Source of the DNA: Methanococcoides methylutens
Lineage (GTDB): Archaea; Halobacteriota; Methanosarcinia; Methanosarcinales; Methanosarcinaceae
DNA length: 64,000 nucleotides
Direction: 5' to 3'
NCBI RefSeq assembly: GCF_000765475.1
Contig: NZ_JRHO01000014.1
Span: 513,687-577,686 of the forward strand
Shown here: positions 20,834 through 44,828 of the stretch, one piece after another
Position numbering within the stretch: position 1 is the first letter of the stretch
Layout of the letters: the number at the start of each line of letters is the position of its first letter
Notes under the pieces: model-generated
What the model was told of the DNA's origin: nothing
What the model saw: only the letters and a program-made list of their open reading frames with translations
The model's database searches: none
Position numbers and translations under genes: made by a program

Positions 20834-23689
20834 ATGAATACTAAAACATTAAAAAACATCATAAAACTAGCAATTGTGTTGACATGCATAGTAACAATGT
20901 CATCTAATGTAATAGCTACAGACTGGACAAAGTTCCATGCAGACCCATATAATACAGGAGTTACACCCGACAAAGCACCCATTGATAAAGATCTACTGAC
21001 CTTATGGGATGTTTCGACGGCATCTTCAGCAATGGCAGGCATTGATGCCGAACCTGTAATAGTAGGAGATACTATCTACGTGATAGGTGATAAGGGAACT
21101 TTACTAGCAATTGACAAGAACGATGGGACGGTTTTGTGGACAAGTAAAACAAACCATGGAAGCGATTCATGGTCACTTGGAGCCCCATGTTATGGAAATG
21201 GAAAAATTTTTGTTACAACTAATAATGGAATGATATATACATTTGATGCAGAAACAGGAGTAGAACTCTGGAATGATACTGCTATTAGCGACAATCCGAA
21301 TTTCACTCAGATGAATACGCCTGTTACCTATGAGAACGGAAGGATATACTTTGGAGGATGGCTTCCTTTTGGAGGTGCCAGCCAGTATTATTGCTACGAT
21401 GAGGATGGTACACGAATATGGAATAGAGAATCCACCAGTGGCGGATACTACCGTGCAGGATGCGTAATATTAGGAGATCATCTTATTTTCGGCGATGAAA
21501 ACGCAAATTTGACATCAGTCTATAAATCAAATGGCACAACTGTTGATGAACTTGATGTATCTGCAGAGTTCAACATCGATGCACTAAGAATCAGATCTGC
21601 AGTTACATATGATGAAGATTCGGAGAGGATATATGCAGCTACAGAAGGTGGTTATTGTGTAGCTCTGGGAATGAACGAAGATGGAACATTCAACAGGTCA
21701 GACAAACTTCTTAGTGCACAGGTAGCTAATAAGTTCACTACAACTCCTGCAATATACAACGGAAGATTATATGTTGGCACAGGAGATAGTTATACAGATG
21801 GAACCTTTTACTGTCTTGATGCATCAGACCTGACCGAAATATGGTCATTCTATATACCTGAAGGAGGAGTTCAGGGATCAGCAGCTATCTCAACATATTA
21901 TGATGACGGAGATGGTGAGGTATATGTTTATTTTACAGTGAATGATTATAACTGTAAACTTTATTGTCTTAAAGACTGGCCAAGTAATATGGAAATGCTT
22001 TCTGAAGAATGGTATTTCCAGCCAGAAGAAGAAAAACTACAATTCTCACTCCCAGGTCCGATAATCTCAGAAGGATCAGTATATTTTGCAAATGATGCAG
22101 GATATCTATTTGGAATATCTGAAAAGGAAGGAAACCCTTCAATTGAACCTGTCATGGAAGATGAATGGCACCAGTTCCAAAAGGATGCACAACACACAGG
22201 ATTTACAAATTCTGATGCACCAGATACCAATACACTACTATGGGAAAGCATTGATATCGATGCAACAACTGCGTCTTCACCAGTAGTCGCCGATGGAAAG
22301 CTATATATCAATTGTGCGGACTGGGTGAAGATTCTTGATATGTATACCGGAGAATATTTAGGAGCTACACAAGTTCCAGGAAATAATCTTTTGGATTCAT
22401 GGACACCTGTATCATACAATGAAGGAAGGGTATGGTGCGGTCATTCTCGAGGCATAAATGGTGGTACATTGATAGCTAATGGAAAATATTACCATGGAGA
22501 CTATGAGGGCAATAAATATTATTGCTATGATGAAAGCAATGATGTAGAGCTATGGAGTTTTACAGTCGAAGGAATGGCACAGAGTACGCCGGCATATAGT
22601 GATGGAAATATCTACCTGACAGGCTGCGTATATGAAAACGGCGGAAACGTCTATTGTGTAGATGCTGAAACCGGAAATCAAGTATGGAGCATTGAAGTCG
22701 CCAATGATCCCTGCGGAAGTTTTAGTGTACAAGGAGACATAGCATACTTTACTACATATAACTGGTACACTAGTGGCGATATTTATGCATTGGATAAGAA
22801 CACCGGGGAAATTCTCTGGACAAAAGTGATACAGAGAACAGATGCTGTCCCAACCATTGCATATGGTAACGTTTACGTATCATCAGGTTGCTATTCAGTT
22901 TCCGAATTGCAAACGTATTGTTTCAATGCGACTACCGGTGAAGAGATATGGAATGTTACTGGTGTTGGAGATTGGAAATGTTCAGCTGTGGTCGCTGATG
23001 GAAAGGTCTTCGTAGGAAAACCTGATTCATTCTATACATACGCATCCATGTACGCTCTAAATGCATTTGATGGAACAGAAATGTGGCATTATGGAAGAGG
23101 AGGATCAGCAGCTGCCATATCAGATGGCATTGTGTTTACGGTCGGGAGATCTGGAAAAGTCTATGCCTATGCTGAAACAGCACCGGATCTCGAAACGTCA
23201 GCCATTGTACAATCACAGGTATCTGCCGGACAATCAAATGATATAACTGTGCAGATCGCAAACCATGGTAACGTGGATGCAGGTTCTTTTGAAGTCACCA
23301 TGCTAGTCGATGGTGTCACATTGGATACAAGAACAGTAACATCCCTTTCAAAGGCTTCAAACACAGAAGTCACTTTTGAATGGACGCCTGAAGCCGAAGG
23401 AGAGTATGAACTGCAGGTAGCTATGGACACACAGAATAGCATCGATGAAAGGGATGAAGCCAATAATTACTTCATCTCAACTGCTACGACTGCTATCGAA
23501 GACTGGAACCCGTGGAACGATCCTGATTCTGAAGGGTTACCTGATGGAACATACATTACTTTAACAGAAGTAATCGATGCGTACAACTGTTTCAGAAATG
23601 GAGAGCCTGCACCAGAAACTGGAGCTAGTATCGACCTCACGAGAGTGATAGATCTCTACAATGCATTCAGATACACAACAGCTATGTGA
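20834..23689 (+). CDS. Secreted double PQQ-type beta-propeller protein with CARDB and dockerin-like module
   Basis: 951 residues from the ATG at 20834, preceded by GGTGG; a GTG nine bases upstream is also in frame. Signal peptide 1-28 (cut near NVIA/TDW). Two propeller regions each begin with a W-F-D-NTG-AP opening (DWTKFHADPYNTGVT near 29; EWHQFQKDAQHTG near 443) and contain many GE(I/L)W blade motifs. Residues 782-885 form a CARDB-like domain. The last 62 residues (890-951) are the shared dockerin-like module. No PQQ-enzyme catalytic residues were recognised, so it is probably a binding or scaffold protein. It has a strong terminator and its own upstream region. Confidence 0.88.
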   Translation: MNTKTLKNIIKLAIVLTCIVTMSSNVIATDWTKFHADPYNTGVTPDKAPIDKDLLTLWDVSTASSAMAGIDAEPVIVGDTIYVIGDKGTLLAIDKNDGTVLWTSKTNHGSDSWSLGAPCYGNGKIFVTTNNGMIYTFDAETGVELWNDTAISDNPNFTQMNTPVTYENGRIYFGGWLPFGGASQYYCYDEDGTRIWNRESTSGGYYRAGCVILGDHLIFGDENANLTSVYKSNGTTVDELDVSAEFNIDALRIRSAVTYDEDSERIYAATEGGYCVALGMNEDGTFNRSDKLLSAQVANKFTTTPAIYNGRLYVGTGDSYTDGTFYCLDASDLTEIWSFYIPEGGVQGSAAISTYYDDGDGEVYVYFTVNDYNCKLYCLKDWPSNMEMLSEEWYFQPEEEKLQFSLPGPIISEGSVYFANDAGYLFGISEKEGNPSIEPVMEDEWHQFQKDAQHTGFTNSDAPDTNTLLWESIDIDATTASSPVVADGKLYINCADWVKILDMYTGEYLGATQVPGNNLLDSWTPVSYNEGRVWCGHSRGINGGTLIANGKYYHGDYEGNKYYCYDESNDVELWSFTVEGMAQSTPAYSDGNIYLTGCVYENGGNVYCVDAETGNQVWSIEVANDPCGSFSVQGDIAYFTTYNWYTSGDIYALDKNTGEILWTKVIQRTDAVPTIAYGNVYVSSGCYSVSELQTYCFNATTGEEIWNVTGVGDWKCSAVVADGKVFVGKPDSFYTYASMYALNAFDGTEMWHYGRGGSAAAISDGIVFTVGRSGKVYAYAETAPDLETSAIVQSQVSAGQSNDITVQIANHGNVDAGSFEVTMLVDGVTLDTRTVTSLSKASNTEVTFEWTPEAEGEYELQVAMDTQNSIDERDEANNYFISTATTAIEDWNPWNDPDSEGLPDGTYITLTEVIDAYNCFRNGEPAPETGASIDLTRVIDLYNAFRYTTAM
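23501..23689 (+). repeat. 189-bp dockerin-like module, copy 1
   Basis: Encodes the last 62 residues and stop. Variable positions here: RNGEPAPETG, IDLTRVIDLY and the end TTAM. Confidence 0.9.
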
Positions 23690-23708
23690 TAACGAAAGCA
23701 AAGTTTGG

Positions 23709-23752
23709 AAATAAGGCATGGTTACAAAGCCATCCTTATTTCTCTTTTTTAT
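23709..23752 (+). terminator. Terminator after the first propeller gene
   Basis: AAATAAGGCATGG and CCATCCTTATTT form a 12-pair stem with one bulge and an 8-base loop, followed by CTCTTTTTT. Confidence 0.75.
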
Positions 23753-23903: not shown

Positions 23904-23946
23904 ATGTGTCGATTGATTGTAAGTTTAAGAAAATAGAGGGAAAATA

Positions 23947-24972
23947 ATGTTCAAAGGTTGTTATGTCTTATTTTTGATCCTTATACTAATATCGACTTCA
24001 TGCGCAAGTGCAGTAGAAGCCAGTATGACAGAATATCCACTTACGATAGTGGATAATATGAATAATACTATTACAATAGAAACCAAACCTGAAAGGATAT
24101 TGTCCACGATGCCAAGCAACACAGAGATCCTTTTTGCTGTCGGTGCCGGGGACAATGTTGTTGGAGGCACGATCCATGATGAGTATCCACCTGAAGCTGT
24201 AAATATCTCGAAGGTAGGAGGATATACCAATCTTGACTTTGAGGCAATCGTCAACCTTGAACCTGATGTCGTGTTTGCTTCTGAAGCAAACGGTGAAGAT
24301 GCTACCAATATGCTGAAGGACCTGGGATTCACTGTGATAATCCTGGAACCAAAAACTATCGATGACATCATGAGCAACATAGAACTTATAGGAGAAGTGA
24401 CTGGAAATAAAGAAACAGCACTCTCTGTCACCGATGACATGAAAGCACAAATGGATGCCATCACGAGCAAAACAGAAGATGTGCCTACTGAGGAACGTCC
24501 TCGTGTACTTTATCTGATATGGCACGATCCAATGTACTCTGCCGGACTTGATTCATATCCTGATGACCTCATAGCAATGGCTGGAGGAAACAATATACAG
24601 AAAGCTGAAGGATGGCCTGTTATCAATCTTGAAGATGTCATCGCCAGCAATCCACAGATCATAATCTGTTCCGGAATGGGAGGTGGATCGTACACAATAA
24701 TGGAATCGATCAAGAATAACGATGCTCTGGTTCAGACAGATGCCATAAAGAATAACAAAGTTTACCCTATCGAGGACCCCAGCATCATCGAGATCCCTGG
24801 CCCGAGGATCGTGGAAGGACTAAAAGAATTGCACGGATACATTGGACCTGAAATCAAGGTCAATGAAGAGGAAACGGGTGAGGAAGCACCAGTGAACAAC
24901 ACGCCCGGATTTGGTGTTCTGGCCGCATCCTGTATGTTGGTGGCAGGCTACCTTAGGGCAAAGCGTTCCTGA
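23947..24972 (+). CDS. BtuF/FecB-type solute-binding protein with PGF-CTERM anchor
   Basis: 341 residues. Signal peptide 1-23, then the periplasmic-binding fold typical of cobalamin, heme and iron-chelate receptors (KPERILSTMPSNTEILFAVGAG; LEPDVVFASEANG; AEGWPVINLEDVIASNPQIII). The C-terminus has a linker, then TPGFGVLAASCMLVAG and the basic AKRS, a PGF-CTERM signal for archaeosortase processing and lipid anchoring, so the receptor is tethered outside the membrane. GAGGG precedes the ATG. Permease and ATPase genes follow. In a methylotrophic methanogen corrinoids are a likely substrate, but iron chelates fit equally by sequence. Confidence 0.88.
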   Translation: MFKGCYVLFLILILISTSCASAVEASMTEYPLTIVDNMNNTITIETKPERILSTMPSNTEILFAVGAGDNVVGGTIHDEYPPEAVNISKVGGYTNLDFEAIVNLEPDVVFASEANGEDATNMLKDLGFTVIILEPKTIDDIMSNIELIGEVTGNKETALSVTDDMKAQMDAITSKTEDVPTEERPRVLYLIWHDPMYSAGLDSYPDDLIAMAGGNNIQKAEGWPVINLEDVIASNPQIIICSGMGGGSYTIMESIKNNDALVQTDAIKNNKVYPIEDPSIIEIPGPRIVEGLKELHGYIGPEIKVNEEETGEEAPVNNTPGFGVLAASCMLVAGYLRAKRS

Positions 24973-25001
24973 ATATAAATACGGAATAGGAAAAGGTAAA
25001 G

Positions 25002-26856: not shown

Positions 26857-27633
26857 TTAAGTTTTTTGTTGTCTTTTTGCCATATAAACAGACATCAGCA
26901 CTCCGCTGACTGCTAATATCATTTCAAAACCAGGGACCTTTGGTTCAGACTCTTGGTTTTCAGAATCCTGAGATTCAGTATCATCTACAGGCTGTACCAC
27001 CGAATTATCCTCAGCGATCACATTTTCTATAACAATTTTACTTTCATTCCCTTCAGAAATTACCCCCGTTTCCTGCTCCACATCAGATACTTGTGGATTT
27101 ATTGAAGAAGAACTGCCAGAGAATGTATTGTCCGGGATACCAGTCGTTTTAGTAAGTGAAGAGGAAGCAGCAATAACAGTAAGTTGCGTATCACCAACAC
27201 CATTGTAACCAGCACTATTACTGCTATCCAAGTATCGACCTGCAAGATCATATACACCGACAACAGTGCCTGCACCTACATTGAGATCATATTTTACAGT
27301 ATAATCGCTTGCAGGAAGTGCTCCACTCATGAAATTGCGTGAAAAGTAGTGAATACCATTAGAATTTTGATGAGTATCCAGTTCTGGAGGACATTCTACA
27401 TTAGATACTGTCCAATCAGCCATTTCTGTTGCACTGTAATCTTCTACAAGTGCGTTTAAGCTTTCTTCATTCACATAATTTGTCAACTCAAGTGTTACAT
27501 GAACAGTTTCACCCGGACTCACCATTGTATCGCTCAAAGTTCTTGTCATTATAGGATCTGCAGCGGCAGGAGATAAAATTGTGACCAGCAGCATAAGTAT
27601 ACATATTACAAATTTGAATGTGTTTTTATTCAT
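26857..27633 (-). CDS. PGF-CTERM surface protein, short paralogue
   Basis: 258 residues. Signal peptide 1-25 (PAAADP cut region). Residues 26-165 form a beta-rich domain of unknown function that is closely similar to the N-terminal domain of the larger protein encoded just upstream on the same strand (shared TRTLSDT, VTLELTNYVNEE, SNVECPPELD, DTQLTV). A Ser/Glu-rich linker follows, then VPGFEMILAVSGVLMSVYMA and KRQQKT, a PGF-CTERM anchor. Extracellular, probably lipid-anchored. It looks like a duplication that lost, or never had, the PKD and DUF4430-like part. Confidence 0.8.
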   Translation of the reverse strand: MNKNTFKFVICILMLLVTILSPAAADPIMTRTLSDTMVSPGETVHVTLELTNYVNEESLNALVEDYSATEMADWTVSNVECPPELDTHQNSNGIHYFSRNFMSGALPASDYTVKYDLNVGAGTVVGVYDLAGRYLDSSNSAGYNGVGDTQLTVIAASSSLTKTTGIPDNTFSGSSSSINPQVSDVEQETGVISEGNESKIVIENVIAEDNSVVQPVDDTESQDSENQESEPKVPGFEMILAVSGVLMSVYMAKRQQKT

Positions 27634-27972: not shown

Positions 27973-29982
27973 TTAATGTCTCTTAGCCAGATATACGGAC
28001 ATCAACAATCCGATCACAGCAAAGATCATTTCAAAACCAGGAGTATTCGGATCAGATTCCTGCTGTGCAGGTTCCTGATATTCGCCATCACCCTGTGAAT
28101 CGGAATCATCTGCATCCGGTTCTGAAGAGTCGCCATCATTGCCATTGTCTTCAACAATTACATCTGGGTCTTGCTCCTCCACAGGAGGTAATGGTGTCTC
28201 AGTGGAAGATATAATTCGAGCAGATCCTGTGCCACTACCTCCACCACCACGGGTTGACGTCTTTTCAACTACTTCAATCGTTACAACATACCTTTGGTCA
28301 AGCATGTTTGGTTCCCACATTTCACCGGTGTAAGAGGAATAGACGTATTCCAGAACATCGCTTTCATTAAGGGAATTGCTTCCAAATGAACCAGCCAATT
28401 CACCGTTGAGCCAGATAGACCAACCAGAGCTTGTTTCAGGTTCATTAGAGAAATCATTTGCAATATCGTCTATTGAATTAAGGAAATTGCCAGTTGCATT
28501 GTAATCAAGACCAGTTGCATTGAGTGCATCCATGTCATTCATATCTGAGATCAGGTAGATCTGATCATTGAATAATTCAACAGGAGGTGCAACATTAGCA
28601 GTGATTGTTACAACATACCTCTGGTCAAGCATGTTTGGTTCCCACAGATCCCCGGTATAAGAGGAATAGACGAATTCTACAACATCACTTTCATTAAGGG
28701 AATTGCTTCCAAATGAACCAGCCAGTTCACCGTTGAGCCAGATAGACCAACCTACACTCTCTTCAGGGGTAGTGCCATAAGATGCTACAATACCATCGAT
28801 AGTGTCAATGAAACCACCCGGTGCATTGTAATCAAGACCAGTTGCATTGAGTGCATTCATGTCATTCATGTCTGAATAGGAAAGGTAGACTGAATCATTG
28901 AATAATTCAACAGCAGGTATAATATTGACATTGATCGTTACAACATACTGCTGATCTATCATGTTTGGTCCCATCATATCATCCATACCAATAAGGATGA
29001 ATTCTACGGTATCGCCATCAGCAAGTGCTTGTGATCCAAAACCAAACAGATCATTAACCTGCACTCCGTTGATAAACGTATACCAGTTAGATCCGGTACC
29101 AGGGCCTGCAAAATTCTCGTACAGATGTCCATCAACACTAGTAAGCTGACTACCAGACACAATGTAGTCAAGTCCTGTTGCGTTGAGTGCAGCTCCATCG
29201 TTCATATCTGCATAGTAAAGGGATACTTCACCATCGTAAAGAACGATTGGAACGTTTGTAACAGTGATCAAATCTGTTTTTGTAACACTGTCTTCACCAA
29301 AATCATTGCTGATGTTCAAAGAAACAGTGTAGATCCCCTGAGTACTAAATATATGTTCCGGACTTTGTTCAGTTGAATCAACCAAACCATCGTTGTCAAA
29401 GTCCCATTCCCATGCCTCAGCATTAATTGAGTTGTCTGTGAATTGAACAGTCAGAGGTATTGAACCCGATATTACGTCTGATTCAAAGTCAGCTACAGGA
29501 AGAGGAATGTTAACAGTAAGCTGGGTGTCACCAACAGCAGGCCCGTATCCAGCAGAGTTGCCGCTGTCCTTATATGTGCCGATTAGGTCATATGTGCCAG
29601 TTTCAGTGTCTGCATCTACAGTGAGGTCATATTCTACAGTGTAATCCCCAACTGGCATCGCTCCACTCATCAAATCACGTGAGAAGTAGTGAACACCACT
29701 AGTGTTTATGTAGGCATCCAGTTCTGGAGGACATTCTACATTAGATAATGTCCAGCCAGCCATTTCTGTTGCACTGTAGTCTTCCATAAGTGCATTTAGA
29801 CCTTCTTCATTTACATAACCGGTCAATTCAAGTGTCACATGAACAGTATCCCCTGGAACTACTGTTGTATCACTCAATGTTCTTGTCATTACAGGGTCTG
29901 CAGCTGCAGGAGATGCTATAAGTGCAACTGAGATCAGCAACAGAAGTGCTAGAATTCCAGATTTGAATATATTTTTATTCAT
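27973..29982 (-). CDS. PGF-CTERM surface protein with PKD and three DUF4430-like repeats
   Basis: 669 residues. Signal peptide 1-28; residues 29-167 match the short paralogue's domain; 168-250 is a PKD domain (WEWDFDNDGLVDS). Three repeats of about 105 residues follow (251-570), each with an opening such as VELFNDSVYLSYSDMND, a W-IWLNGE core and D-VEF/EYVYSSYTG, resembling the transcobalamin-like DUF4430 fold. An acidic linker leads to TPGFEMIFAVIGLLMSVYLA and KRH, a PGF-CTERM anchor. The last two repeats are nearly identical, pointing to recent duplication. DUF4430 relatives and the adjacent BtuFCD-type importer make corrinoid capture a reasonable but unproven idea. Confidence 0.8.
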   Translation of the reverse strand: MNKNIFKSGILALLLLISVALIASPAAADPVMTRTLSDTTVVPGDTVHVTLELTGYVNEEGLNALMEDYSATEMAGWTLSNVECPPELDAYINTSGVHYFSRDLMSGAMPVGDYTVEYDLTVDADTETGTYDLIGTYKDSGNSAGYGPAVGDTQLTVNIPLPVADFESDVISGSIPLTVQFTDNSINAEAWEWDFDNDGLVDSTEQSPEHIFSTQGIYTVSLNISNDFGEDSVTKTDLITVTNVPIVLYDGEVSLYYADMNDGAALNATGLDYIVSGSQLTSVDGHLYENFAGPGTGSNWYTFINGVQVNDLFGFGSQALADGDTVEFILIGMDDMMGPNMIDQQYVVTINVNIIPAVELFNDSVYLSYSDMNDMNALNATGLDYNAPGGFIDTIDGIVASYGTTPEESVGWSIWLNGELAGSFGSNSLNESDVVEFVYSSYTGDLWEPNMLDQRYVVTITANVAPPVELFNDQIYLISDMNDMDALNATGLDYNATGNFLNSIDDIANDFSNEPETSSGWSIWLNGELAGSFGSNSLNESDVLEYVYSSYTGEMWEPNMLDQRYVVTIEVVEKTSTRGGGGSGTGSARIISSTETPLPPVEEQDPDVIVEDNGNDGDSSEPDADDSDSQGDGEYQEPAQQESDPNTPGFEMIFAVIGLLMSVYLAKRH

Positions 29983-30431: not shown

Positions 30432-31952
30432 ATGAAAAAATATAATAAAATAATATCCATAGGCATATTTGTGTTCATAACAATTATTGCATCCTGTACA
30501 CCAGTAATTGCATCTGACTGGATGACTTTCCTTAAAGACAACTCCAACACCGGCGTCACAGCAGACGAAGCACCAATCACCACCCCGGAAAATTCGGTGA
30601 GCTGGGCTAAAAAAGTAGGTTATGCCAATACTGCTCCAATGGTAGTCGGCAACAATATCTATGTTGCAAGCAAGCAAAATGTCTTAGCAATTGATAAGAT
30701 CACAGGAGATACCATCTGGCAATCTGACATGCATAATCTGGATATCATTGGAAACCCGGCATATGGTAACAACAAAATATTCATACCCACATCAAGTGGC
30801 TATATTTATACATTTGATGCTACAACCGGAGAAGAACTATGGAACATATCTGTAGGGAAGTCTAGATATCTCCTTTCACCTATAAAATATGAAGATAACA
30901 AAATATATTTTGCAGATAGTACAGACTGGAGTGGATCTGATGGTACATATTATTGCTATGATGAGACTGGAAACCAGATTTGGGCATACAGTTCCACAGC
31001 TTCTGGCAGCACTGGATATTACTTTGCAGGTGCAGCCTTAATAAATGACTATATAGTATTTGGCAATTCAAATGGGAATCTGACTTCCCTTTACAAGATC
31101 AACGGCACCACGGTTGATGAAGCAGATATTAGAACAATATGGGGTGATTCTGATGCATGTTTCATACGTTCATCCATGACATATAGTGAAAATAACAAAA
31201 GGCTGTACTTTACTTCCACAGAATCAGGCATGGAACCCGAAAAAGGTTATTGCTCTGCAATTGGATTTAATCCTAGCACAGGGACTTTCGACACTTCTGA
31301 TACAGTAAGAGCTTATATTGGGCCCACAACTTCAACGCCTGTAATTTTCAATAACAGGGTTTACGTTGGAAATGCAACTACATGGGGCTCAGCAACGGGA
31401 ACCGTGTTCTGCCTTGATGGAACAGATCTTTCGAAAATATGGACATTTACTCCGGAAGGAGATGCTAAATTCCAATCATCAGCTGCCATATCAACAAGAT
31501 ATGTCGATACTGACGGAAGCGTTTACATATACTTTACAAGCAATACCGCGGATGGAAGCCTCTACTGCCTGAAAGATTACGAAGGGAACACAAATCCGAT
31601 CCATAGATATACATATCTGCCTTCTTCCACAATGCAACAATTTACACTCGGAAGCCCGGTTATATCCGATGGAAGAGTATATTATACTAATAATGAAGTG
31701 GTAGGAAATGGTGGATACCTGTTCTCACTCGCAACAGCAGAATCTTTGGATCCGGACACTGTGGACTGGAACCCATGGAATGATCCTGATTCTGAAGGTA
31801 TGCCAGATGGAACATACATCACTTTAACAGAGGTAATCGATGCATACAACTGTTTCAGAAATGGAAAGCCTGCACCGATAACAGGAGCCAGTATCGACCT
31901 CACAAAAGTGATCGATATGTACAACAATTTCAGGTATTCCACATCGATGTGA
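30432..31952 (+). CDS. Secreted PQQ-type beta-propeller protein with dockerin-like module
   Basis: 506 residues. Signal peptide 1-27 (cut near VIAS/DW), the family opening DWMTFLKDNSNTGVT, and a single propeller to about 440 with blade motifs such as DKITGDTIWQ and DATTGEELWN. The dockerin-like module is 445-506. Blade sequences resemble the first propeller of the 951-residue protein (YYCYDE; GNLTSLYKINGTTVDE), so the two come from one ancestor. No anchor of its own. It ends at a hairpin terminator. Confidence 0.87.
   Translation: MKKYNKIISIGIFVFITIIASCTPVIASDWMTFLKDNSNTGVTADEAPITTPENSVSWAKKVGYANTAPMVVGNNIYVASKQNVLAIDKITGDTIWQSDMHNLDIIGNPAYGNNKIFIPTSSGYIYTFDATTGEELWNISVGKSRYLLSPIKYEDNKIYFADSTDWSGSDGTYYCYDETGNQIWAYSSTASGSTGYYFAGAALINDYIVFGNSNGNLTSLYKINGTTVDEADIRTIWGDSDACFIRSSMTYSENNKRLYFTSTESGMEPEKGYCSAIGFNPSTGTFDTSDTVRAYIGPTTSTPVIFNNRVYVGNATTWGSATGTVFCLDGTDLSKIWTFTPEGDAKFQSSAAISTRYVDTDGSVYIYFTSNTADGSLYCLKDYEGNTNPIHRYTYLPSSTMQQFTLGSPVISDGRVYYTNNEVVGNGGYLFSLATAESLDPDTVDWNPWNDPDSEGMPDGTYITLTEVIDAYNCFRNGKPAPITGASIDLTKVIDMYNNFRYSTSM
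31764..31952 (+). repeat. 189-bp dockerin-like module, copy 2
   Basis: Differs from the other copies at EGMPDG, RNGKPAPITG and YNNFRYSTSM. Confidence 0.9.
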
Positions 31953-34306: not shown

Positions 34307-36040
34307 ATGATCACTAAATTGAAAATACCTTATCTAAAGACTTTTATTTTCTGTGCCATACTCCTTCTTTCAACATTGCCAATGGCATCAGCAAACATTT
34401 CAGATGAAGATCCGGATGTTTTCTGGACACAGTTCCAGCATAATGCATTGAAAACAGGTACTACATACTCTTCCGCACCATATTCGGACCCGGCAGTACT
34501 ATGGAGAGGAACTACGAACCCGTCACAATCTGCTGTCAGTGTCACGCCGGTGATAACAGATGAAATGGCATACATACTCATATCAGGAGGAAATGTATGT
34601 GCTTACAATAAGACCAGCGGGGATCTTGTCTGGAGCTCAGGAACAAAGGACGGATCACTTCAAACATCGATCCCGGCCTATGGAAACGGAAAAGTGATTG
34701 TTGCTGTGAACGATCATTATAACAGCGGTTACCTTTTCGCTTTTAATGCAACTAATGGTGACGAACTCTGGAACGTTTCAGTAACAGAAGGGAATTTTGC
34801 ATGTCCTGTGACATATTTCGACCATCGCATATATGTTGCAGATGGGCTTAAAGGTGGAATTTCCACAAAATATTATTACTGTTATGATGACAACGGAAAC
34901 CTACTCTGGAAACATGCAAACAATGATACTGCGGGCTTCCTCTGGTGTGGTGCTTCAATTGTTGAAGATTACATTATCTATCCAACCCATGAAGGAAAGC
35001 TTGTCAGCCTTTACAGGACCAACGGGACATTTGTCGATGAAGTAGATATTACAACAGACCTTTCATTCTCCAAACCGGATCTGGGAAGGATAAGAGCATC
35101 GGTTTCTTACAGTGACGGATATATATACACGACTTCAGAAGATACATTCACAGAAGGTTATATCTGGAAAGTTGGATTTGACCCTGTAAATGGAGTTTTC
35201 ATCGATGATGGGTGGGGTATCAGGCGAGGATTCAGCACATCAACCCCGGTAGTACACGATGGAAAAGTCTATGTGGGTCAGGGAGAGCATGGATATACAG
35301 GCGATCTTACATGTCTTAACGATTCAGATGGCAGCCTGTTATGGTCATATCCTACAGATGCAGGAGTAAAATGTTCACCTGTGATATCAATACAGAAAAA
35401 TTCCGCATACGTGTACTTTACAGGTGCAAAGACTAACAGTAGTCTCTATTGCGTGGATCAGGACGGACAGCTTGCATGGCAGTATAATCCACTTGATGAT
35501 TATGGATATATCCTGCAGGGAGCTGCCATATCTGACGAAAAGGTCTTTTTCGGAACAGATGGAGGATATCTTTATTGTCTTGAAGAAGCCCCACACGAAC
35601 CACCTATACCGGATTTTACTGCAGATCCCACATCAGGATATGACAAGCTTTCTGTTGATTTCACCGACCATTCAACGAATTATCCAACCTCATGGAACTG
35701 GGATATGGATAATGACGGTATCATTGATCATACTGATCAAAACCCGACACATTACTATGATACTTCTGGCGTTTATACCGTGACCCTCAACGTTAGTAAT
35801 GTCTATGGTAACAATATTCTCTCAAAAACTGACTACATTGTTGTGGAAGCGGACTGGAACCCCTGGAACGATCCAGATTCTGAAGGATTGCCTGACGGGA
35901 CATACATCACTTTAACAGAGGTTATCGATGCGTACAACTGTTTCAGAAATGGAACACCTGCACCAGGAACCGGATCTATTATAGACCTTACAAAAGTGAT
36001 CGATATGTACAATGCATTCAGATATGAAAATCCGATATAA
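34307..36040 (+). CDS. Secreted propeller protein with PKD domain and dockerin-like module
   Basis: 577 residues. Signal peptide 1-29 (cut near PMASA). Propeller about 38-425 with opening FWTQFQHNALKTGTT; PKD domain 431-515 (SWNWDMDNDGIIDH; SGVYTVTLNVSN); dockerin-like module 516-577. The PKD plus module arrangement is the same as at the end of the 866-residue protein further downstream. It starts 19 bases after the previous gene's terminator, and AATGTGGTGGT lies before the ATG. Confidence 0.87.
   Translation: MITKLKIPYLKTFIFCAILLLSTLPMASANISDEDPDVFWTQFQHNALKTGTTYSSAPYSDPAVLWRGTTNPSQSAVSVTPVITDEMAYILISGGNVCAYNKTSGDLVWSSGTKDGSLQTSIPAYGNGKVIVAVNDHYNSGYLFAFNATNGDELWNVSVTEGNFACPVTYFDHRIYVADGLKGGISTKYYYCYDDNGNLLWKHANNDTAGFLWCGASIVEDYIIYPTHEGKLVSLYRTNGTFVDEVDITTDLSFSKPDLGRIRASVSYSDGYIYTTSEDTFTEGYIWKVGFDPVNGVFIDDGWGIRRGFSTSTPVVHDGKVYVGQGEHGYTGDLTCLNDSDGSLLWSYPTDAGVKCSPVISIQKNSAYVYFTGAKTNSSLYCVDQDGQLAWQYNPLDDYGYILQGAAISDEKVFFGTDGGYLYCLEEAPHEPPIPDFTADPTSGYDKLSVDFTDHSTNYPTSWNWDMDNDGIIDHTDQNPTHYYDTSGVYTVTLNVSNVYGNNILSKTDYIVVEADWNPWNDPDSEGLPDGTYITLTEVIDAYNCFRNGTPAPGTGSIIDLTKVIDMYNAFRYENPI
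35852..36040 (+). repeat. 189-bp dockerin-like module, copy 4
   Basis: Variable residues: RNGTPAPGTGSI and RYENPI. Confidence 0.9.
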
Positions 36041-36900: not shown

Positions 36901-39900
36901 ATGAATCAATTAAAAAAACCCAACACGGTAAAAATTTTTGTTGGGATGTTGCTTGTAATGTTATTAATACCAGCAGCATCTGCAACGGATTGGAGTTCTT
37001 TTCAAGAGGACAACTACAATAAAGGATTGACATCAGACAAAGCTCCTATAACCGATCCATATGGAAACGGCATCTCATGGGAGAGCTCGTATACACTCGG
37101 AAGCTCATGGTCAGGTTTCGATAATGCACCTCTGGTAATAGGTAACATTGTATACGTGGCCGGTGACGATAACAGGTTACGGGCACTGTACAAGACCAAC
37201 GGCACTGAAAAATGGGTGACCGCCACAAGCGGTGGCCGCGTGCTCGGAAACATGGCTGCAGGCAACGGCAGTATATTTGTTCCGACCAGCGATGGAAAGG
37301 TGTACGCTATCGATATGAACACAGGTGTTGAGCAGTGGCGGGCAATTGAATCAGGTCAACTGATCACTCCTGTGGTCTATGAAGACAATAAGATATACTT
37401 CGGTAGCTGGGAAAGCAAGAAATATTATTGCTACCACGACAACGGAACAATGTGTTGGAACCGCACTTCTACCAGTGGGGACGGTTACTACTGGGCAGGT
37501 GCTGCGATAGTAGGCGATTACCTGATCTATGGAGACGATGCTGGCGTCCTAACTTCCGTGTATAAAGTTGATGGCACCACTAAGGACACGCTGGACGTAT
37601 CCACTGAATTTGGCGTCACGGCAAATCAGATCAGGTCATCCATCAATTATGTTGAGGATCTGGAACGCATATACTTCACATCCAAAGGCGGCTATATATA
37701 CGCTCTCGGTATGAATCCGGACGGAACCTTCAATACCGCTGACAAGGCTAATGCAAACATCGGTTACAGCACATCCACACCTGCTGTCTATAACGGCAAG
37801 GTGTATGTCGGTAGCAGCAGCTACTTTACCTGCCTTTTCGCAAACGATCTTACGATGGACTGGTGTTTTTCAGTAGATGGACAGATCCAGTCATCCCCTG
37901 TGATCAGTACGGCATACGATGACGGTGATGGCGAGATCTATATCTACTTCACCGAGAACTGGGGAGGAGTAGGCGTACACTGCCTCAACGAAAATGGAGT
38001 TGAGCAGTGGTCCTGGGGTCCGACTGCAAAGACGGAGTTTACCCTGGCCGGTGTGGCAATATCGGACGGCTGGATCTTCTTCGGCACCGATGCCGATTAT
38101 GTGTTCGGATTTGCAACAGATGAGTCACTGCGTGAACCCATAATGCTCAACCCGGGAGATTCCCTGCAGGAAGCGATCTATGGTGCAAACAACGGTGACA
38201 CCATCATGATGGCACCGGGTACCTACAGTGTCTCGTACATAAACAAGAGTGACCTGACCTTCATGGCTGACGGCGGTGAAGTTATCATAACAGGTGGCTC
38301 CAGCATTGCTTTTGGCCTGGCAGACGCAGATGATACTATAGGTTGCGATGCTTCAGGAATAACTTTCAACGGAATTACTTTTAGTGGTTTCAACATGTTA
38401 GTCAAAGACCTTGACTACCCGAAGCCCAATCAGATTGTTAACAATCTGACATATGATGGATGTACATTCTCTGGCAATGATTATTTGTATCTGTATGATG
38501 ACTCAGCTGTACTGGGTTGTACAGTCGATGATCTTGGTCTCAGGGTGTATGGAGACAATGTAAGATTTGAGGACAACATAGGTAGCGCTGGAAGCATAGG
38601 TGACGGGAAAACATGCTCTGGTTTAATCGTAAGGAACAACTCGATCAGTTCATTTGGTATATCCGTAACTTATTCAGAAATGTTAATGGAAGACAATGTT
38701 TTTGAGGCGATTTCGAGTCTTTCCTCCAATGAGGCGGCTATTATTCATGATAATGTGTTCGCCAACAGCAGTGAGTATTTAGATATGGGTGGGCAGGTTT
38801 ACGAGAATACATTTTTGAGTTGTACTATGCTTTCAGGTTCTTACTATACGTCTGGATCTTACTACCTCAATAACTTCATAGACTGCGGCACTATATATAT
38901 GTGTGATTGCGATACGAGTGCTGAAGATATTGGAATTTATAACACGTCCACACCAGTAACCTACACCTATGGCGGTGCAAGTTACACCGGCTATCTCGGC
39001 AACTACTACTCCGAGTATGCAGGCAGTGATGCCGATGGCGATGGCGTTGGTGATAATCCAGTCTCATCCACAAGTACTTTTAGTGAGACTAGCGGTGTTG
39101 ATTCCTATCCACTCATGGGTGCATGGGACGTCGCAACTGACACGATTGAAGAACCGGAAATAGTTCCACAGCCACCTGAAGCCCCCACAGCTTTAGAATG
39201 TTCAGGGGTTGACAGATGCGTATGTCTTAGCTGGGATACACCTGCAAGCGATGAAGCAATAACTTCATTCAATGTTTACAGGGCTACCATTTCAGGAGCA
39301 GAAACACTGTACGAAACAGTTTCTGCAGACACAACTGTATTCGCAGATCATGACGTTACCAACGATCAGACATACTACTATCAGGTAAGTGCTGTCAGCA
39401 GCATTGGAGAAGGAGATATTTCAACAGAGATCACCGGTACGCCTGTTGCAGAGGTTATCAGTGACAGCTGGGAACACTTCATGGGAGATCTGCAGCACAC
39501 AGGATACTCTACTACACCCGGACCTAAGACCAACAATACTATCTGGGAATCAGCAGACATCGATGCAGAAGATGGTGCATCAATCACTATTGCTGATGAT
39601 CTTGGGCTTATGTTCGTGATCAGTGATGCAAAGGAAAGTTCATGGTCCACTGACGGCTATAACAACCTTTCAGCCATCAACCTTGAAGATGGTTCAGTGG
39701 TATGGGATGTCACATTCGGAAATGGTGACAATTACAATTCCATGGATTCATGGTCCACTCCTGCCTACCACAACGGTATTGTATTCACAGCCGGTGATGG
39801 TGCAAGATATGCCAACAACGGTACCCTCAAATGGGGATCACTTCCAATGAACACTAACGGAGGTCCTCTTGTTGCTGAAGGCAAGGTCATTGTGGGCAAC

Positions 39901-41217
39901 TGGGACGGAAAACAGTACTTCTGCTTCGACGAGGAAACAGGAGCTGAGCTCTGGAATATCTCTGTGAATGGAAATGCACAGGGCACCCCTGTTTACAACG
40001 ACGGCCACATGATCCTTACCTCATACGAAGAGGTTAACTGCGTTGACATGGACGGTAATGTGCTATGGACCCAGGCAATTGCTCAAAGTGTCTGTGGTTC
40101 AGCAAGCATACAATATGATAATGTCTACATTACGATCTACGATATGAACTACGGTGCTCAGTACGTATATGCACTGGACGAGTCCACAGGTAATATCGTA
40201 TGGCAGGCAACCATGTCCAATCAGATGATGATGGGTACAGACTGCACACCAGCAGTTGCATATGGATATGTATATGTCACTGCCGGTATGGCTATGATCG
40301 ACCAGAACACCTACTGCTTCGATGCTTTCACAGGAGATAGCGTCTGGGCATCCAGTGAAACTGGATCCTGGTTCACATCACCTGTAGTCTCTGACGGTGT
40401 TGTATATGCAGGCGCAGAGGATTATTTCTCCGGTGCCGGTGGCATGGGATCCTTCACACGCACAGTTGCACTGGATGCATTTGATGGAAGCCTGATCTGG
40501 GAATCTGATGTTGGTGGTTCAACACCGGCACTCTATGATGGAGTACTCTATACAGTAGGCTTCCAGAAAGTGTATGCATTTGGACCAGGTCTTTCCCTGG
40601 TACCCGAAGATGCTTCCGTGATCAAGGGGCAGCAAACCCAGATCAGGATCATGGCAAGCGAATTCCCTGATGGTCTTTCCGGTTACAATCTGACCATCGA
40701 TATTGCCGATCCGGCTGTTGCCGAGATCGTAGATATTGATATTCCTGAATGGGCTACGCTCAATGATTCTTCTTCCATGCCCGGAGCTTCCGTTTTCCTG
40801 AGGGCTGTTGACAGTGGAAAAGGTGTTCAGGCAGGAGCACAGGATGTTGTACTTGCAACCCTTACGGTCTCAGGAAACAGCGTTGGTTCCACGGATCTTG
40901 TTCTTGGCGTTGAAAGGCTGGACGATGACAATGGTGATCATATCGATATGGTTCTTTCAGCAGGAACTCTTGAAGTTATTATGACACCGATACCGGGTGA
41001 GACCATGTCACCACAGGATCTTGACGGTGACGGATGCTATGAAGACCTGACCGGAAACGGCGATTGCAGTTTCGCGGATGTCGTGCTCTTCTTCCATGAG
41101 ATGGAGTGGATCGAGGCAAATATGCCTATGGGATACACTGATTTCAACGGAAACGGCAGGATCGACTTTGACGATGTCATAAAGCTGTTTGACATGGTGG
41201 GCCCTGTGGGACAATAA
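36901..41217 (+). CDS. Giant secreted protein: two propellers, beta-helix, Fn3, cohesin-like domain and canonical dockerin
   Basis: 1438 residues, the largest gene here. Signal peptide 1-28; first propeller 29-405 (DWSSFQEDNYNKGLT); right-handed beta-helix of the NosD/pectin-lyase type 410-735 (PGDSLQEAIYGANNGDTI); Fn3 domain 757-850; second propeller 855-1225 (SWEHFMGDLQHTGYS). The cohesin-like domain is 1231-1360 (FPDGLSGYNLTIDIADPAVAEI). A C-terminal pair of Ca-binding dockerin loops is 1371-1438 (DLDGDGCYEDLTGNGDCSFADV and DFNGNGRIDFDDVIKLF patterns). Unlike the other propeller proteins it lacks the 62-residue module. Cohesin plus dockerin in one chain is the design of an adaptor scaffold. 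Base composition is somewhat more G/C-rich than its neighbours. Confidence 0.85.
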   Translation: MNQLKKPNTVKIFVGMLLVMLLIPAASATDWSSFQEDNYNKGLTSDKAPITDPYGNGISWESSYTLGSSWSGFDNAPLVIGNIVYVAGDDNRLRALYKTNGTEKWVTATSGGRVLGNMAAGNGSIFVPTSDGKVYAIDMNTGVEQWRAIESGQLITPVVYEDNKIYFGSWESKKYYCYHDNGTMCWNRTSTSGDGYYWAGAAIVGDYLIYGDDAGVLTSVYKVDGTTKDTLDVSTEFGVTANQIRSSINYVEDLERIYFTSKGGYIYALGMNPDGTFNTADKANANIGYSTSTPAVYNGKVYVGSSSYFTCLFANDLTMDWCFSVDGQIQSSPVISTAYDDGDGEIYIYFTENWGGVGVHCLNENGVEQWSWGPTAKTEFTLAGVAISDGWIFFGTDADYVFGFATDESLREPIMLNPGDSLQEAIYGANNGDTIMMAPGTYSVSYINKSDLTFMADGGEVIITGGSSIAFGLADADDTIGCDASGITFNGITFSGFNMLVKDLDYPKPNQIVNNLTYDGCTFSGNDYLYLYDDSAVLGCTVDDLGLRVYGDNVRFEDNIGSAGSIGDGKTCSGLIVRNNSISSFGISVTYSEMLMEDNVFEAISSLSSNEAAIIHDNVFANSSEYLDMGGQVYENTFLSCTMLSGSYYTSGSYYLNNFIDCGTIYMCDCDTSAEDIGIYNTSTPVTYTYGGASYTGYLGNYYSEYAGSDADGDGVGDNPVSSTSTFSETSGVDSYPLMGAWDVATDTIEEPEIVPQPPEAPTALECSGVDRCVCLSWDTPASDEAITSFNVYRATISGAETLYETVSADTTVFADHDVTNDQTYYYQVSAVSSIGEGDISTEITGTPVAEVISDSWEHFMGDLQHTGYSTTPGPKTNNTIWESADIDAEDGASITIADDLGLMFVISDAKESSWSTDGYNNLSAINLEDGSVVWDVTFGNGDNYNSMDSWSTPAYHNGIVFTAGDGARYANNGTLKWGSLPMNTNGGPLVAEGKVIVGNWDGKQYFCFDEETGAELWNISVNGNAQGTPVYNDGHMILTSYEEVNCVDMDGNVLWTQAIAQSVCGSASIQYDNVYITIYDMNYGAQYVYALDESTGNIVWQATMSNQMMMGTDCTPAVAYGYVYVTAGMAMIDQNTYCFDAFTGDSVWASSETGSWFTSPVVSDGVVYAGAEDYFSGAGGMGSFTRTVALDAFDGSLIWESDVGGSTPALYDGVLYTVGFQKVYAFGPGLSLVPEDASVIKGQQTQIRIMASEFPDGLSGYNLTIDIADPAVAEIVDIDIPEWATLNDSSSMPGASVFLRAVDSGKGVQAGAQDVVLATLTVSGNSVGSTDLVLGVERLDDDNGDHIDMVLSAGTLEVIMTPIPGETMSPQDLDGDGCYEDLTGNGDCSFADVVLFFHEMEWIEANMPMGYTDFNGNGRIDFDDVIKLFDMVGPVGQ

Positions 41218-41403: not shown

Positions 41404-42213
41404 TTGAAAAATAGATATGGAATTATCGCATCGATTTTTTTAGTTTTTACCCTCATTTTTTCAACCGGTATCTGCATGGGGCTTGCAGGAGCATCTTCCT
41501 CCCTTGTTATCGAACCTTCAGACCAGATATCCCTTGAAGCAGGGGAAACCATGGAACTGTCCCTGAGTGTGGACGAGTTACCCGACGGGCTTATGGGCTA
41601 TTTTCTGACAGTGGAACTGGATGATCCTGACGTTGCCCGGATCGAGAACGTTGACTTCCCTGCATGGGCAAGCCCGAATGACATGTCAGAACTTCCCGAT
41701 TCCTCCGTGTGGCTGAAGGCAGCAGACCTTCAATTTGCCGTAGGAGAAGGAGCTAAAGACACTGAACTTGCAACCCTCACATTAAAGGGAATGGAGGGCG
41801 GCTCTACAGGGATTACGGTAACGATATCCAGGCTGGATGACGAGTCTGAAAACGCGATCATACTCGAAAAAGCGGAATATCCGGAAGAAGAGGAGGAAGA
41901 GGAAACCGGAGATGAAAATCCACCTGCTGATGAGAGTTTCGAATCTTCAAGATCCACAGATCAAAGGAGTAGTTCTAAGGTCGAAATATCGGAAGATGCA
42001 GAATCCGAAAATCCAGAAGAAAGTCAGGATGAAAACTCAGAAAATCAGGTGACGTCCCAAAACCCGGAAACAGAGTCAATTGAAAACGCAAATGTTGAAG
42101 TGGAAGATACCGGTGGAAATACACTCCCAGGGTTCGGATCTGCCCTTTCAGCATCAATTTTCGTGATCATGGGGATTGTCAGTAGAAGATCGACTAAACT
42201 CAGGAGAAAATAA
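41404..42213 (+). CDS. PGF-CTERM-anchored cohesin-like protein (anchoring scaffoldin candidate)
   Basis: 269 residues starting at TTG, supported by AGGTGAT three bases upstream and no suitable ATG. Signal peptide about 1-30; one cohesin-like domain about 33-155 (LPDGLMGYFLTVELDDPDVARI; SSVWLKAADL; ISRLDDESENAI); a long Glu/Ser/Asn-rich linker 158-240; then LPGFGSALSASIFVIMGIV and RRSTKLRRK, a PGF-CTERM anchor. This is the architecture of a bacterial anchoring scaffoldin, with archaeosortase lipid anchoring in place of SLH or sortase. It is followed 14 bases later by a propeller gene that also has a cohesin-like domain. Binding of the dockerin-like modules is inference. Confidence 0.82.
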   Translation: MKNRYGIIASIFLVFTLIFSTGICMGLAGASSSLVIEPSDQISLEAGETMELSLSVDELPDGLMGYFLTVELDDPDVARIENVDFPAWASPNDMSELPDSSVWLKAADLQFAVGEGAKDTELATLTLKGMEGGSTGITVTISRLDDESENAIILEKAEYPEEEEEEETGDENPPADESFESSRSTDQRSSSKVEISEDAESENPEESQDENSENQVTSQNPETESIENANVEVEDTGGNTLPGFGSALSASIFVIMGIVSRRSTKLRRK

Positions 42214-42227
42214 GTGGAGATAAATTC

Positions 42228-44828
42228 ATGGTAAAATTACAGAGAAAACAAACAGGAAAAAAGTTGACACCCGGCAGGTGGTCAGTAAAGGCTAGCATCA
42301 CAATCCTCTTGCTCCTGTTCTGTCTTGGAACCGGTATGGCTGCGGCTCAGGAGATCTACTTTGAACCCGGAGACACGACCCTTGCCGGGGTGGGCCAAAC
42401 AGAAGCACTGAACTTCTACCTTGACCAGTTACCTGCCGGGCTTTCCGGTTATAATCTCACCCTTGGCATAAGCGATCCTTCAGTTGCCAGAATAACAGGA
42501 GTCGAATTCCCTGACTGGTCAGGCACACTACATACGAACTCACAACTTCCAGCAAATTCAATTTGCATCAAAGCTATCGACCTGAACAAAAATGTGAATG
42601 CCGGAGATGCAAATATCCTACTGGGCACGGTGACCGTAGAATCCCTTGCTATTGGGGAAGGGAACATCACGGTATCGATCAACCGTCTGGAAGATGATAA
42701 CGGAAATACATTCCCCGTAGATATCAGGGAAGCAAAAATGTCAGTAATGGACACAGTCGTTGAGCCTAATGGAATACGAAGCATTGAGCCTAATTCTATT
42801 GAGCCGGAAAATGCCTTTACGGTGACTGTTGTACTCTCCGCAGGTGATACGGATGTCGAATCCATATTGCTGGAAGAAAAACTTCCGGATGGATGGACAG
42901 TAACACCTGTCCGGAATGACGGTATGAGTTACTCAATAACAGGTGATCTGCATACCTGGCATGAAACTTCGAATATACTTGAATCTGGAAGCAGTAAAAC
43001 AATAGTCTATGATGTTACCGTACCGGCTGAAACAAGTGGTGGGATCTATAATATTGATGGCTGGTTTTCCGCATATGAAGCGAATAAATTCCCATTGGTG
43101 TATCATCACAACGAAGTCAGCGGTGAAAACACAGTAGAGGTTATCGGCGAGCAGATATTCACTTCCACAGACTGGCCCCTGATCGGCAAAGGCCTGTACA
43201 ACAACGCAGTCACAAGCGACAGGGCACCGATACAGGAACCAAATGATTCAGGATCCTGGTCCACCATGACCCAAGGGGCAGGATTTTCCGGAATAGATGT
43301 ACACCCCCTTGTAGTTGGAGATCTGGTTTATGTGACAACACCGAGTTCCGTATTTGCAGTTGACAGGAACACAGGAGAGATCGAATGGCAAAATGATATT
43401 ATCGAAGGTGCCACCGCTCCTCTGGGAACCCCGGCTTATGGTAATGGGAAATTGTTTGTTACTGCTTTTAGTAAATTATATGCCTATGACGCCATATCAG
43501 GTAATGAGCTATTGAACGTTACTATTGATAGTGAAAACCAGGAATTTACACAGATGAATACTCCTGTTATGTATGAAGATGGCAGGATCTTCTTTGGTGA
43601 ATGGATCCCCTATGGCGAGTATAACCGCAAATACTATTGCTATAATGAAGACGGCACTCTGGAATGGACCTATGTTACTCCTACCGGCAAGGGCTATTAC
43701 TGGGCAGGTTCTGCGGTTGTAGGAAGGTATCTGGTCTTTGGGGACGATGCTCTCCACCTAACATCACTGGACAAATATGACGGAGAAGTTGTTGATGAAA
43801 TAAATGTTTCTGAATTATTGGAAATTGGATACAACGGTGAAAGGGAAGAGATCAGGAATTCCATAACATATAGTCCTGATACGGGACGTATATATTCTGC
43901 CTCCGAAGCTGGGTATTGCTTCTCCATTGGTTTTAATGTAGATGGTACATTCAATACAGCAGATGCTCAGAAATCCTATATAGGAAAAAGCACATGCACC
44001 CCAACTATTTACAATGGCAGAGTATATGTCGGCACAGGCACTCACACAGGAACCGGTGATGTATATTGCCTGAACGAAGAGGATCTCTCGGAAATCTGGA
44101 AGTACACTCCAAACGGTGGTGTACAGGGCTCTCCGGTAATATCAACTGCTTATGATGACGGAGATGGGGAAGTATACATCTACTTCACCACAAATGTCTT
44201 GGATGCAAGGGTCTATTGTCTAAAAGATTATACAGGCAATACTGTGCCTGAACTTCAATGGTATTACGAGGCCCCACCTGAAAAGAATGAATACACACTA
44301 CATGGTGTCACTATAAAGGACGGACGTATATTCTACGGCAATGATCGGGGTTATTTATTCGGGCTTTCCGATGTTGGAAACAATATAGTAACTCCGCCAG
44401 AAGCCAACTTCAGCTCTGATCTGGTTTCCGGATATGCACCGCAGACCGTCCAGTTCACCGACCTGTCCACAGATGCTGCAGGCTGGTCCTGGGATTTTGA
44501 CAACGACGGGATCGAGGATTCCATCGAGCAGAACCCACAGTTCACTTATACAGCTCCTGGAACATACACAGTGAGCCTCACCGTGAACAACGCAGCAGGT
44601 AGTGACACCGAGACCAAGATAGACTACATCGCTGTCAATGACTGGAACCCATGGAATGATCCTGATTCTGAAGGACTTCCAGATGGAACATACATCACTT
44701 TAACAGAGGTGATTGATGCATACAACTGTTTCAGATATGAAACACCTGTACCGGAATCTGGAACGAATATCGATTTTACAACTGTGATCGATATGTATAA
44801 TGCATTCAGATATGGAAATCCGATGTGA
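42228..44828 (+). CDS. Secreted protein: cohesin-like domain, propeller, PKD, dockerin-like module
   Basis: 866 residues, ATG preceded by GGAGAT. Signal peptide 1-41. The cohesin-like domain is 42-175 (LPAGLSGYNLTLGISDPSVARI). A beta-domain of the DUF11/NEW3 kind is about 178-310. The propeller is 315-715 (DWPLIGKGLYNNAVT; close to the first propeller of the giant protein), PKD 724-803 (WSWDFDNDGIEDS), dockerin-like module 805-866. With an interaction domain at each end it could link partners in a chain. Co-transcribed with the anchored cohesin-like gene 14 bases upstream. Confidence 0.86.
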   Translation: MVKLQRKQTGKKLTPGRWSVKASITILLLLFCLGTGMAAAQEIYFEPGDTTLAGVGQTEALNFYLDQLPAGLSGYNLTLGISDPSVARITGVEFPDWSGTLHTNSQLPANSICIKAIDLNKNVNAGDANILLGTVTVESLAIGEGNITVSINRLEDDNGNTFPVDIREAKMSVMDTVVEPNGIRSIEPNSIEPENAFTVTVVLSAGDTDVESILLEEKLPDGWTVTPVRNDGMSYSITGDLHTWHETSNILESGSSKTIVYDVTVPAETSGGIYNIDGWFSAYEANKFPLVYHHNEVSGENTVEVIGEQIFTSTDWPLIGKGLYNNAVTSDRAPIQEPNDSGSWSTMTQGAGFSGIDVHPLVVGDLVYVTTPSSVFAVDRNTGEIEWQNDIIEGATAPLGTPAYGNGKLFVTAFSKLYAYDAISGNELLNVTIDSENQEFTQMNTPVMYEDGRIFFGEWIPYGEYNRKYYCYNEDGTLEWTYVTPTGKGYYWAGSAVVGRYLVFGDDALHLTSLDKYDGEVVDEINVSELLEIGYNGEREEIRNSITYSPDTGRIYSASEAGYCFSIGFNVDGTFNTADAQKSYIGKSTCTPTIYNGRVYVGTGTHTGTGDVYCLNEEDLSEIWKYTPNGGVQGSPVISTAYDDGDGEVYIYFTTNVLDARVYCLKDYTGNTVPELQWYYEAPPEKNEYTLHGVTIKDGRIFYGNDRGYLFGLSDVGNNIVTPPEANFSSDLVSGYAPQTVQFTDLSTDAAGWSWDFDNDGIEDSIEQNPQFTYTAPGTYTVSLTVNNAAGSDTETKIDYIAVNDWNPWNDPDSEGLPDGTYITLTEVIDAYNCFRYETPVPESGTNIDFTTVIDMYNAFRYGNPM
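44640..44828 (+). repeat. 189-bp dockerin-like module, copy 5
   Basis: The most divergent copy: RYETPVPESGTNIDFTTVIDM and RYGNPM, while the first half is unchanged. Confidence 0.9.

Follow-up and report, generated by a model that had tools for sequence, protein, structure and literature searches.

Five proteins encoded in one gene cluster of Methanococcoides methylutens end in the same short module, which is probably a divergent dockerin-like docking domain that would tether its carriers to NEW3-like sockets on PGF-anchored proteins, a reading drawn from sequence comparison and predicted structures. Two mutually independent lines, a plug-like fold and a socket-like fold, converge on one set of genomes and gene clusters, and a divergent dockerin-cohesin-like system is the economical reading. 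On the best reading, the principle is the known one of dockerin and cohesin, and what is new are parts that the sequence models of dockerins and cohesins do not recognise. It is largely an open question how methanogens retain what they secrete, enzymes and large propeller proteins alike, at the S-layer. If the reading is true, many proteins annotated as 'hypothetical' or 'PQQ-binding-like' gain a location and a partner, and the cohesin-dockerin principle is broader than its sequence models reveal.

Five proteins share a C-terminal module

In the window, the 64,000-nucleotide stretch of DNA analysed here, five plus-strand open reading frames (ORFs) share a C-terminal module with the motif D-W-N-P-W-N-D-P-D-S-E-G ... 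Y-I-T-L-T-E-V-I-D-A-Y-N-C-F ... I-D-L-T-x-V-I-D-x-Y-N-x-F-R-Y. As the first-pass annotation had proposed, all copies lie within 23501-44828 and each closes its ORF. Carrier 1 (20825..23689, 954 aa) consists of PQQ-type propellers, a CARDB domain and module 1 (23501..23689), in which helix 1, ITLTEVIDAYNCF, is encoded at 23555-23593 and helix 2, IDLTRVIDLYNAF, ends at 23668. Carrier 2 (30432..31952, 506 aa; module 2 at 31764..31952) and carrier 3 (32269..34224, 651 aa; module 3 at 34036..34224) each comprise a PQQ-type propeller and the module, carrier 4 (34307..36040, 577 aa; module 4 at 35852..36040) comprises a PQQ-type propeller, a PKD domain and the module, and carrier 5 (42228..44828, 866 aa; module 5 at 44640..44828) is built of an A3 cohesin-like domain, a NEW3-like domain, a propeller, a PKD domain and the module. 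The modules had been described as following propellers, and propellers do lie upstream, but a CARDB domain in one protein and a PKD domain in two sit between propeller and module.

With the invariant Asp that precedes W-N-P-W taken as its start, each copy has 62 residues, or 189 bp with the stop codon; counted from the Trp at which it was originally said to begin it has 61, so that the length was right and the start off by one. In the alignment of the five window modules 44 of 62 columns are invariant, and the modules are indeed more alike than the parts they follow, with pairwise amino-acid identities of 76-92%, compared with 23-46% where the upstream parts align best. No sixth copy was found in the 2.51 Mb genome, the five being the only ones detected.

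The suspicion that the module is not a named family was borne out by searches of Pfam, NCBIfam and PDB sequences. No Pfam family, the dockerin model included, matched any of the five window modules at E ≤ 10, and the NCBIfam and PDB sequence searches found no family. A PDB row at E 0.12, a cytochrome b5 domain protein, was taken as a chance match. Viral predicted structures contained no match at E ≤ 0.001, and no description of the module was found in the literature (open papers, searched by titles, keywords and motif letters).

Distribution of the module and its carriers

A profile search of archaeal genomes from the host family, order and class, as the first pass had suggested, placed the module beyond this genome: 41 of the 111 family genomes have it, as do 43 of 185 in the order and 43 of 237 in the class, family genomes without a listed row being counted as negative in this and the other presence/absence tallies. 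Outside the order, no further module genome was found among the 237 genomes of the class. The genera of the host family with the module are Methanosarcina, Methanolobus and Methanococcoides; it is patchy in Methanococcoides (3/11) and Methanolobus (6/27), but present in 27 of 30 Methanosarcina genomes, where the Methanosarcina label of that group and the genus assigned to G089 and G090 are presumptive. A scan of GTDB contigs added Candidatus Methanoxibalbensis and Methanosarcinales bins. The 107 profile hits were reduced to 100 with an aligned span of at least 40 residues, to 99 with both 13-residue helix segments, and to 39 representatives by collapsing at 70% identity.

Whether the module is always C-terminal on secreted proteins was one of the checks proposed, and nearly always it is. 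The stop lies no more than 16 aa past the end of 97 of the 107 hits in the fetched loci, and a hydrophobic segment occurs within the first 75 aa in 82 of the 91 hits with a complete N-terminus versus 70 of 139 control ORFs, the controls being other ORFs of at least 300 aa from the same loci, many of them surface proteins themselves. The other ten hits comprise the leading modules of proteins that have two, an internal copy, an alignment that stops early, and three proteins with pilin heads. An anchor of their own, in the form of a C-terminal hydrophobic helix with a basic end (PGF-CTERM type), is absent from all 95 carriers. The carriers include papain-like proteases with lectin-like and PKD domains, subtilases (subtilisin-like), NosD-type beta-helix proteins, DUF4430 proteins and propeller proteins. 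In family f3 the module is likewise terminal in the fetched loci and its first loop is degenerate. Most Methanosarcina genomes encode a single module protein, the papain-like protease.

The three pilin-head proteins are secreted Methanolobus proteins (L042:1103-3283, L055:4318-6153 and L064:16758-18911) with two archaeal pilin-like heads each, whose Pfam Pilin_N identity was tested for L042 and L064. A lone module-type helix of the ELQ dialect stands before each head, replacing the membrane helix. These half-modules may be candidate partners, or further parts of the system.

Fold of the module and comparison with dockerins

The fold of module 3 was predicted with AlphaFold2 from 99 homologues (alignment A2, 99 of 100 sequences with one fragment omitted), as the annotation had advised. 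The model is a confident two-helix fold (pLDDT 95.4, pTM 0.82) with helices at residues 22-34 and 47-58. When it was compared with the PDB by Foldseek, the top four chains were dockerins, at weak E values of 2.2-4.4. A second comparison with a rigid aligner (VIA) gave dockerins in 10 of 13 rows, including the first eight, the best being 5lxv_B (Z 3.7 over 52 residues). Individual dockerin matches are weak, as would be expected for a domain of 60 residues. EF-hand and other small helical proteins in the PDB far outnumber dockerins, and the point of the fold comparison is that dockerins top the list despite being outnumbered.

Like the type I dockerin (Pfam PF00404), known from cellulosomes and archaea, the module has about 60 residues, is C-terminal on diverse exported proteins, consists of two similar loop-helix units, has dockerins, albeit through weak matches, as its nearest PDB folds, and has halves that match at most of the contact positions given in PMC4728124. 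It differs in its single acidic loop, in a first loop that is longer and contains an invariant Ser, in its Trp-rich W-N-P-W start, and in the lack of a match to the Pfam model at E 10. In an hhalign comparison with 16 canonical archaeal dockerins of the same genomes there was no profile match (probability 0.2). A dockerin has two duplicated F-hand units; the module has two helices, but a calcium-type loop with Glu at position 12 only before helix 1, which agrees with the original observation that only the first helix is preceded by an acidic loop. At EF-loop position 12, helix 1 has Glu in 39/39 representatives, and helix 2 mostly has Arg (22/39). The lone Cys that had been pointed out is kept in all five window modules but is not general, occurring in 25 of the 39 representatives of the wider family. 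Of the features that define dockerins, the module lacks recognition by the Pfam model, a second calcium loop and a profile match, and for this reason we do not class it among the dockerins, although it most likely works like one.

The two helices of a module match each other

Each module contains two 13-residue helix segments, and these resemble each other more than they resemble those of other modules. Their identity within the same module is 0.507, compared with 0.249 when the halves are shuffled among the 99 modules (0/5000 shuffles), and 0.497 compared with 0.252 among the 39 representatives (0/5000). When shuffling was restricted to modules of one genome, the shuffled values rose to 0.365 (99 modules) and 0.351 (39 representatives), still with 0/5000. 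These matches, together with the fold comparison, support the earlier description of the helices as dockerin-like.

Half-to-half identity is in strong excess (0.32-0.52) at EF-loop positions 10, 11, 13, 14, 18 and 21 and in moderate excess at 15, 17, 20 and 22, whereas positions 8, 12 and 16 show none. Calcium position 12, which is Glu in all first helices, thus shows no excess match. In the Clostridium thermocellum dockerin, cohesin is contacted by positions 11, 12, 18, 19, 22 and 23 of each F-hand, and the duplicated halves permit two binding orientations, according to PMC4728124. By these contacts, an internal two-fold symmetry is present at cohesin-contact positions of the module, with excess at 10, 11, 18, 21 and 22, where the numbering may be shifted by one relative to the C. 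thermocellum dockerin. With the same residues exposed on helix 1 and helix 2, the module may bind in either of two orientations, half a turn apart, as type I dockerins do.

Identical codons were used at 116 of 276 matched residues (0.42), compared with 0.39 expected. Gene conversion between the two helices is not supported as an explanation, codon agreement being no higher than expected. As residues match and codons do not, the halves are kept alike by protein selection rather than by DNA copying. The half-to-half code, or 'dialect', varies among the proteins of a single genome. Across the family of modules the dialects include LTEVIDAYN, TTAELQEAI, SLAEIRNAI, TTSELF..., SNSEIQ... and SQDEVM....

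Matched halves would likewise arise if the two helices packed symmetrically against each other or on another module, which would close the carriers or join them as dimers with no need for a receptor, and some of the coupled positions (13, 17 and 20) do look core-like. We regard such self-association as improbable, because the polar, variable loop positions 10, 11, 14 and 18 match as strongly as the core-like ones, there is mostly one module protein per Methanosarcina genome, and the association with NEW3-like domains described below would be left unexplained.

The NEW3-like domain as candidate socket

Cohesin-like and PGF-CTERM proteins had been guessed as neighbours of the module, and both are present in the window. 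Candidate receptor 1 (26857..27633, minus strand, 258 aa) has a signal, one NEW3-like domain (27169..27558, minus strand), an acidic, Ser-rich linker and a PGF-CTERM anchor, and candidate receptor 2 (27973..29982, minus strand, 669 aa) has a NEW3-like domain (29506..29898, minus strand), PKD and DUF4430 domains and a PGF-CTERM anchor; neither contains the module. A third NEW3-like domain lies within carrier 5 (42762..43142, plus strand). Module clusters, this one among them, code for short anchored proteins without the module, made up of a beta-sandwich, an acidic or Ser-rich linker and a PGF-type or transmembrane tail, and in most of them the beta-sandwich is a NEW3-like domain. In Candidatus Methanoxibalbensis and genome G004, the NEW3-like domain is on the ORF directly after the module ORF.

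At E ≤ 1e-20, 39 of the 41 module genomes have the NEW3-like domain, as do 5 of the 70 other genomes of the family, with a profile seeded from module gene clusters, a cut set after the list had been viewed, and a Fisher test that ignores kinship; at 1e-12 eight more non-module family genomes match. Module and module-free genomes also separate within genera, with 6/6 versus 0/21 in Methanolobus and 3/3 versus 0/8 in Methanococcoides. The way the profile was seeded does not dictate that the domain be absent from the 21 Methanolobus genomes without the module, and none of the profile's 22 rows (A4) derives from Methanosarcina, yet the pair is almost always present there. On the side of the exceptions, three module genomes have only a weak NEW3-like match (G005, with 8 modules, at 5e-11; G132, with 9, and G133, with 22, at 4e-6 at best), the NEW3 gene of module genome G087 is interrupted by unread bases, and G007, G068-G070 and G094 have the NEW3-like domain without a detected module.

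In Methanosarcina the NEW3 protein consists of a signal, the NEW3-like domain, a PKD domain, a PGF_pre_PGF domain (TIGR04213, E 1.6e-59 in L139) and a tail. Eight such NEW3-PKD-PGF_pre_PGF proteins were read (seven from Methanosarcina and that of G006), and seven have a hydrophobic tail, L130 ending differently. The simplest case is Methanosarcina, in which a single tagged protease is paired with a single anchored NEW3 protein.

With the AlphaFold2 model of the NEW3-like domain of candidate receptor 1 (pLDDT 95.1, pTM 0.88) as query, Foldseek placed cohesins in the first seven ranks of PDB chains, at E about 1e-5 and with the archaeal cohesin of A. fulgidus among them, and cohesins account for 18 of the 28 chains at E ≤ 1e-3. 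Against PDB sequences, the best matches of the NEW3-like profile are Ruminococcus cohesins (E 0.0037-0.0077), and cohesins fill 4 of 6 rows when a larger alignment is used; in hhalign the profile matches the archaeal Pfam cohesins that these genomes encode, across 49 columns and with 82% probability. Like cohesin (Pfam PF00963), the NEW3-like domain is modelled as a beta-sandwich and sits on cell-anchored proteins. Unlike it, the domain is closer in sequence to NPCBM_assoc/NEW3, the nearest Pfam model for 19 of 22 members, and to DUF11, and its genomic spread differs from that of Pfam cohesins. For the 22 members, Pfam Cohesin does not appear among the 25 of 35 matching families that were listed. 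With the rigid aligner, Ig-like domains of pilins, adhesins and integrins (Z 11-13) are level with or above cohesins (about 11). Given this ranking and the Pfam assignment, an Ig-like surface domain is also a possible reading; our provisional reading is that the NEW3-like domain belongs to the Ig-like beta-sandwiches and, within them, is cohesin-like.

NEW3-like domains also occur inside carriers, and hence may be ordinary companions of the module instead of its receptor; in 12 of 100 cases the domain ends 3-4 residues before the module. The X-module-dockerin dyad is known from CipA and R. flavefaciens. An Ig-type domain so shortly ahead of the module resembles that dyad; a difference is that here the NEW3-like domain sits on anchored proteins as well.

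The A3 domain, classical dockerins and plain cohesins

A different cohesin-like domain, A3, could take the place of the NEW3-like domain as partner of the dockerin-like module. It is carried, for example, by an anchored protein at 41404..42213 (plus strand, 269 aa), which lies between window carriers, lacks the module and has an acidic linker and a C-terminal LPGF...hydrophobic...RRK tail. A3 is restricted to module genomes (14/41, against 0/70 module-free genomes), and its profile, built from three sequences only, aligned with archaeal Pfam cohesins over the full length (hhalign, 118 columns, 48%). An A3 partner nevertheless does not seem likely. No A3 match was found in 27 of the 41 module genomes, and of 21 hits to the canonical-dockerin profile in the fetched loci, all 0-5 aa from the ORF end, 20 come from A3 genomes, which suggests that this dockerin is A3's own partner. 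The classical archaeal dockerin (DLDGDG...DFNGNG) was seen in A3 genomes at 40588-41217 of the window and in L051, L052, L059, L069, L076 and L102. In the window it belongs to a propeller protein without the module (36901..41217, plus strand, 1438 aa), which has an A3 cohesin-like domain at 40588-40962 and the canonical two-F-hand dockerin at 41011-41199; these features are predicted to give the cluster another docking pair, of the classical kind.

The plain Pfam cohesin was also considered. It is equally common with the module (26/41 genomes) and without it (42/70), and for want of any association was rejected as a general partner.

Proposed mechanism

With the NEW3-like domain as the favoured socket, carriers would leave the cell via the general secretory route and then fold. 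The C-terminal module would plug into the cohesin-like NEW3-like beta-sandwich and so hold the carrier at the cell surface, the sockets being on proteins presumably fixed to the membrane through their PGF-CTERM or transmembrane tails. Calcium would be bound by the single acidic loop before helix 1, the loop of helix 2 having apparently been lost. Of the two functions first proposed, a docking tag agrees with the fold comparison, the helix-to-helix matching and the co-occurrence of the partner, from which we infer the binding itself. The other, a sorting or secretion signal read and perhaps removed by a dedicated machine, as PGF-CTERM or type IX secretion tags are, would suit a C-terminal element on unrelated exported proteins that is highly conserved inside a genome, but is very improbable for a confidently folded domain with a hydrophobic stretch and basic tail in 0/95 carriers and a half-to-half code that differs within a genome, which a single processing machine would not require. 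PGF-CTERM tails are found on the candidate receptors in the window and not on the module carriers.

A bolder version, possible but doubtful, is that module and socket form a second, so far unrecognised plug-and-socket system on methanogen cell surfaces beside classical cohesin-dockerin, in which cluster-specific dialects of matched halves are an address code separating the surface assemblies of a single cell. If the main reading is true, the dialects would already offer natural orthogonal plug-socket pairs.

Evolution of the tag and surrounding genes

The upstream parts of the five carriers are 75-91% identical to their counterparts in M. seepicolus (G021). Nucleotide identity of the modules is 0.81-0.86 for orthologous M. 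seepicolus pairs versus 0.79-0.88 between different carriers of the window. Orthologous modules are thus no closer than paralogous ones, and the copies of the tag in a cluster appear to evolve in concert, which would suit interchangeable plugs that serve shared sockets; carriers may have exchanged whole modules by conversion or shuffling.

Several other genes adjoin the carriers. Just ahead of carrier 1, at 17554-20549 (minus strand), a T2SSE/PilB3-like ATPase of type IV pili is encoded together with two Pilin_N genes. Amid the carriers, 23947-26799 encodes a FecCD-type ABC importer (a binding protein with a PGF-like tail, a permease and an ATPase), possibly for cofactor or metal uptake, adjoined by a DUF4430 PGF-CTERM protein. 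Directly past the last carrier, at 44938-47751 (minus strand), lie two adjacent paralogues of ADP-dependent phosphofructokinase/glucokinase.
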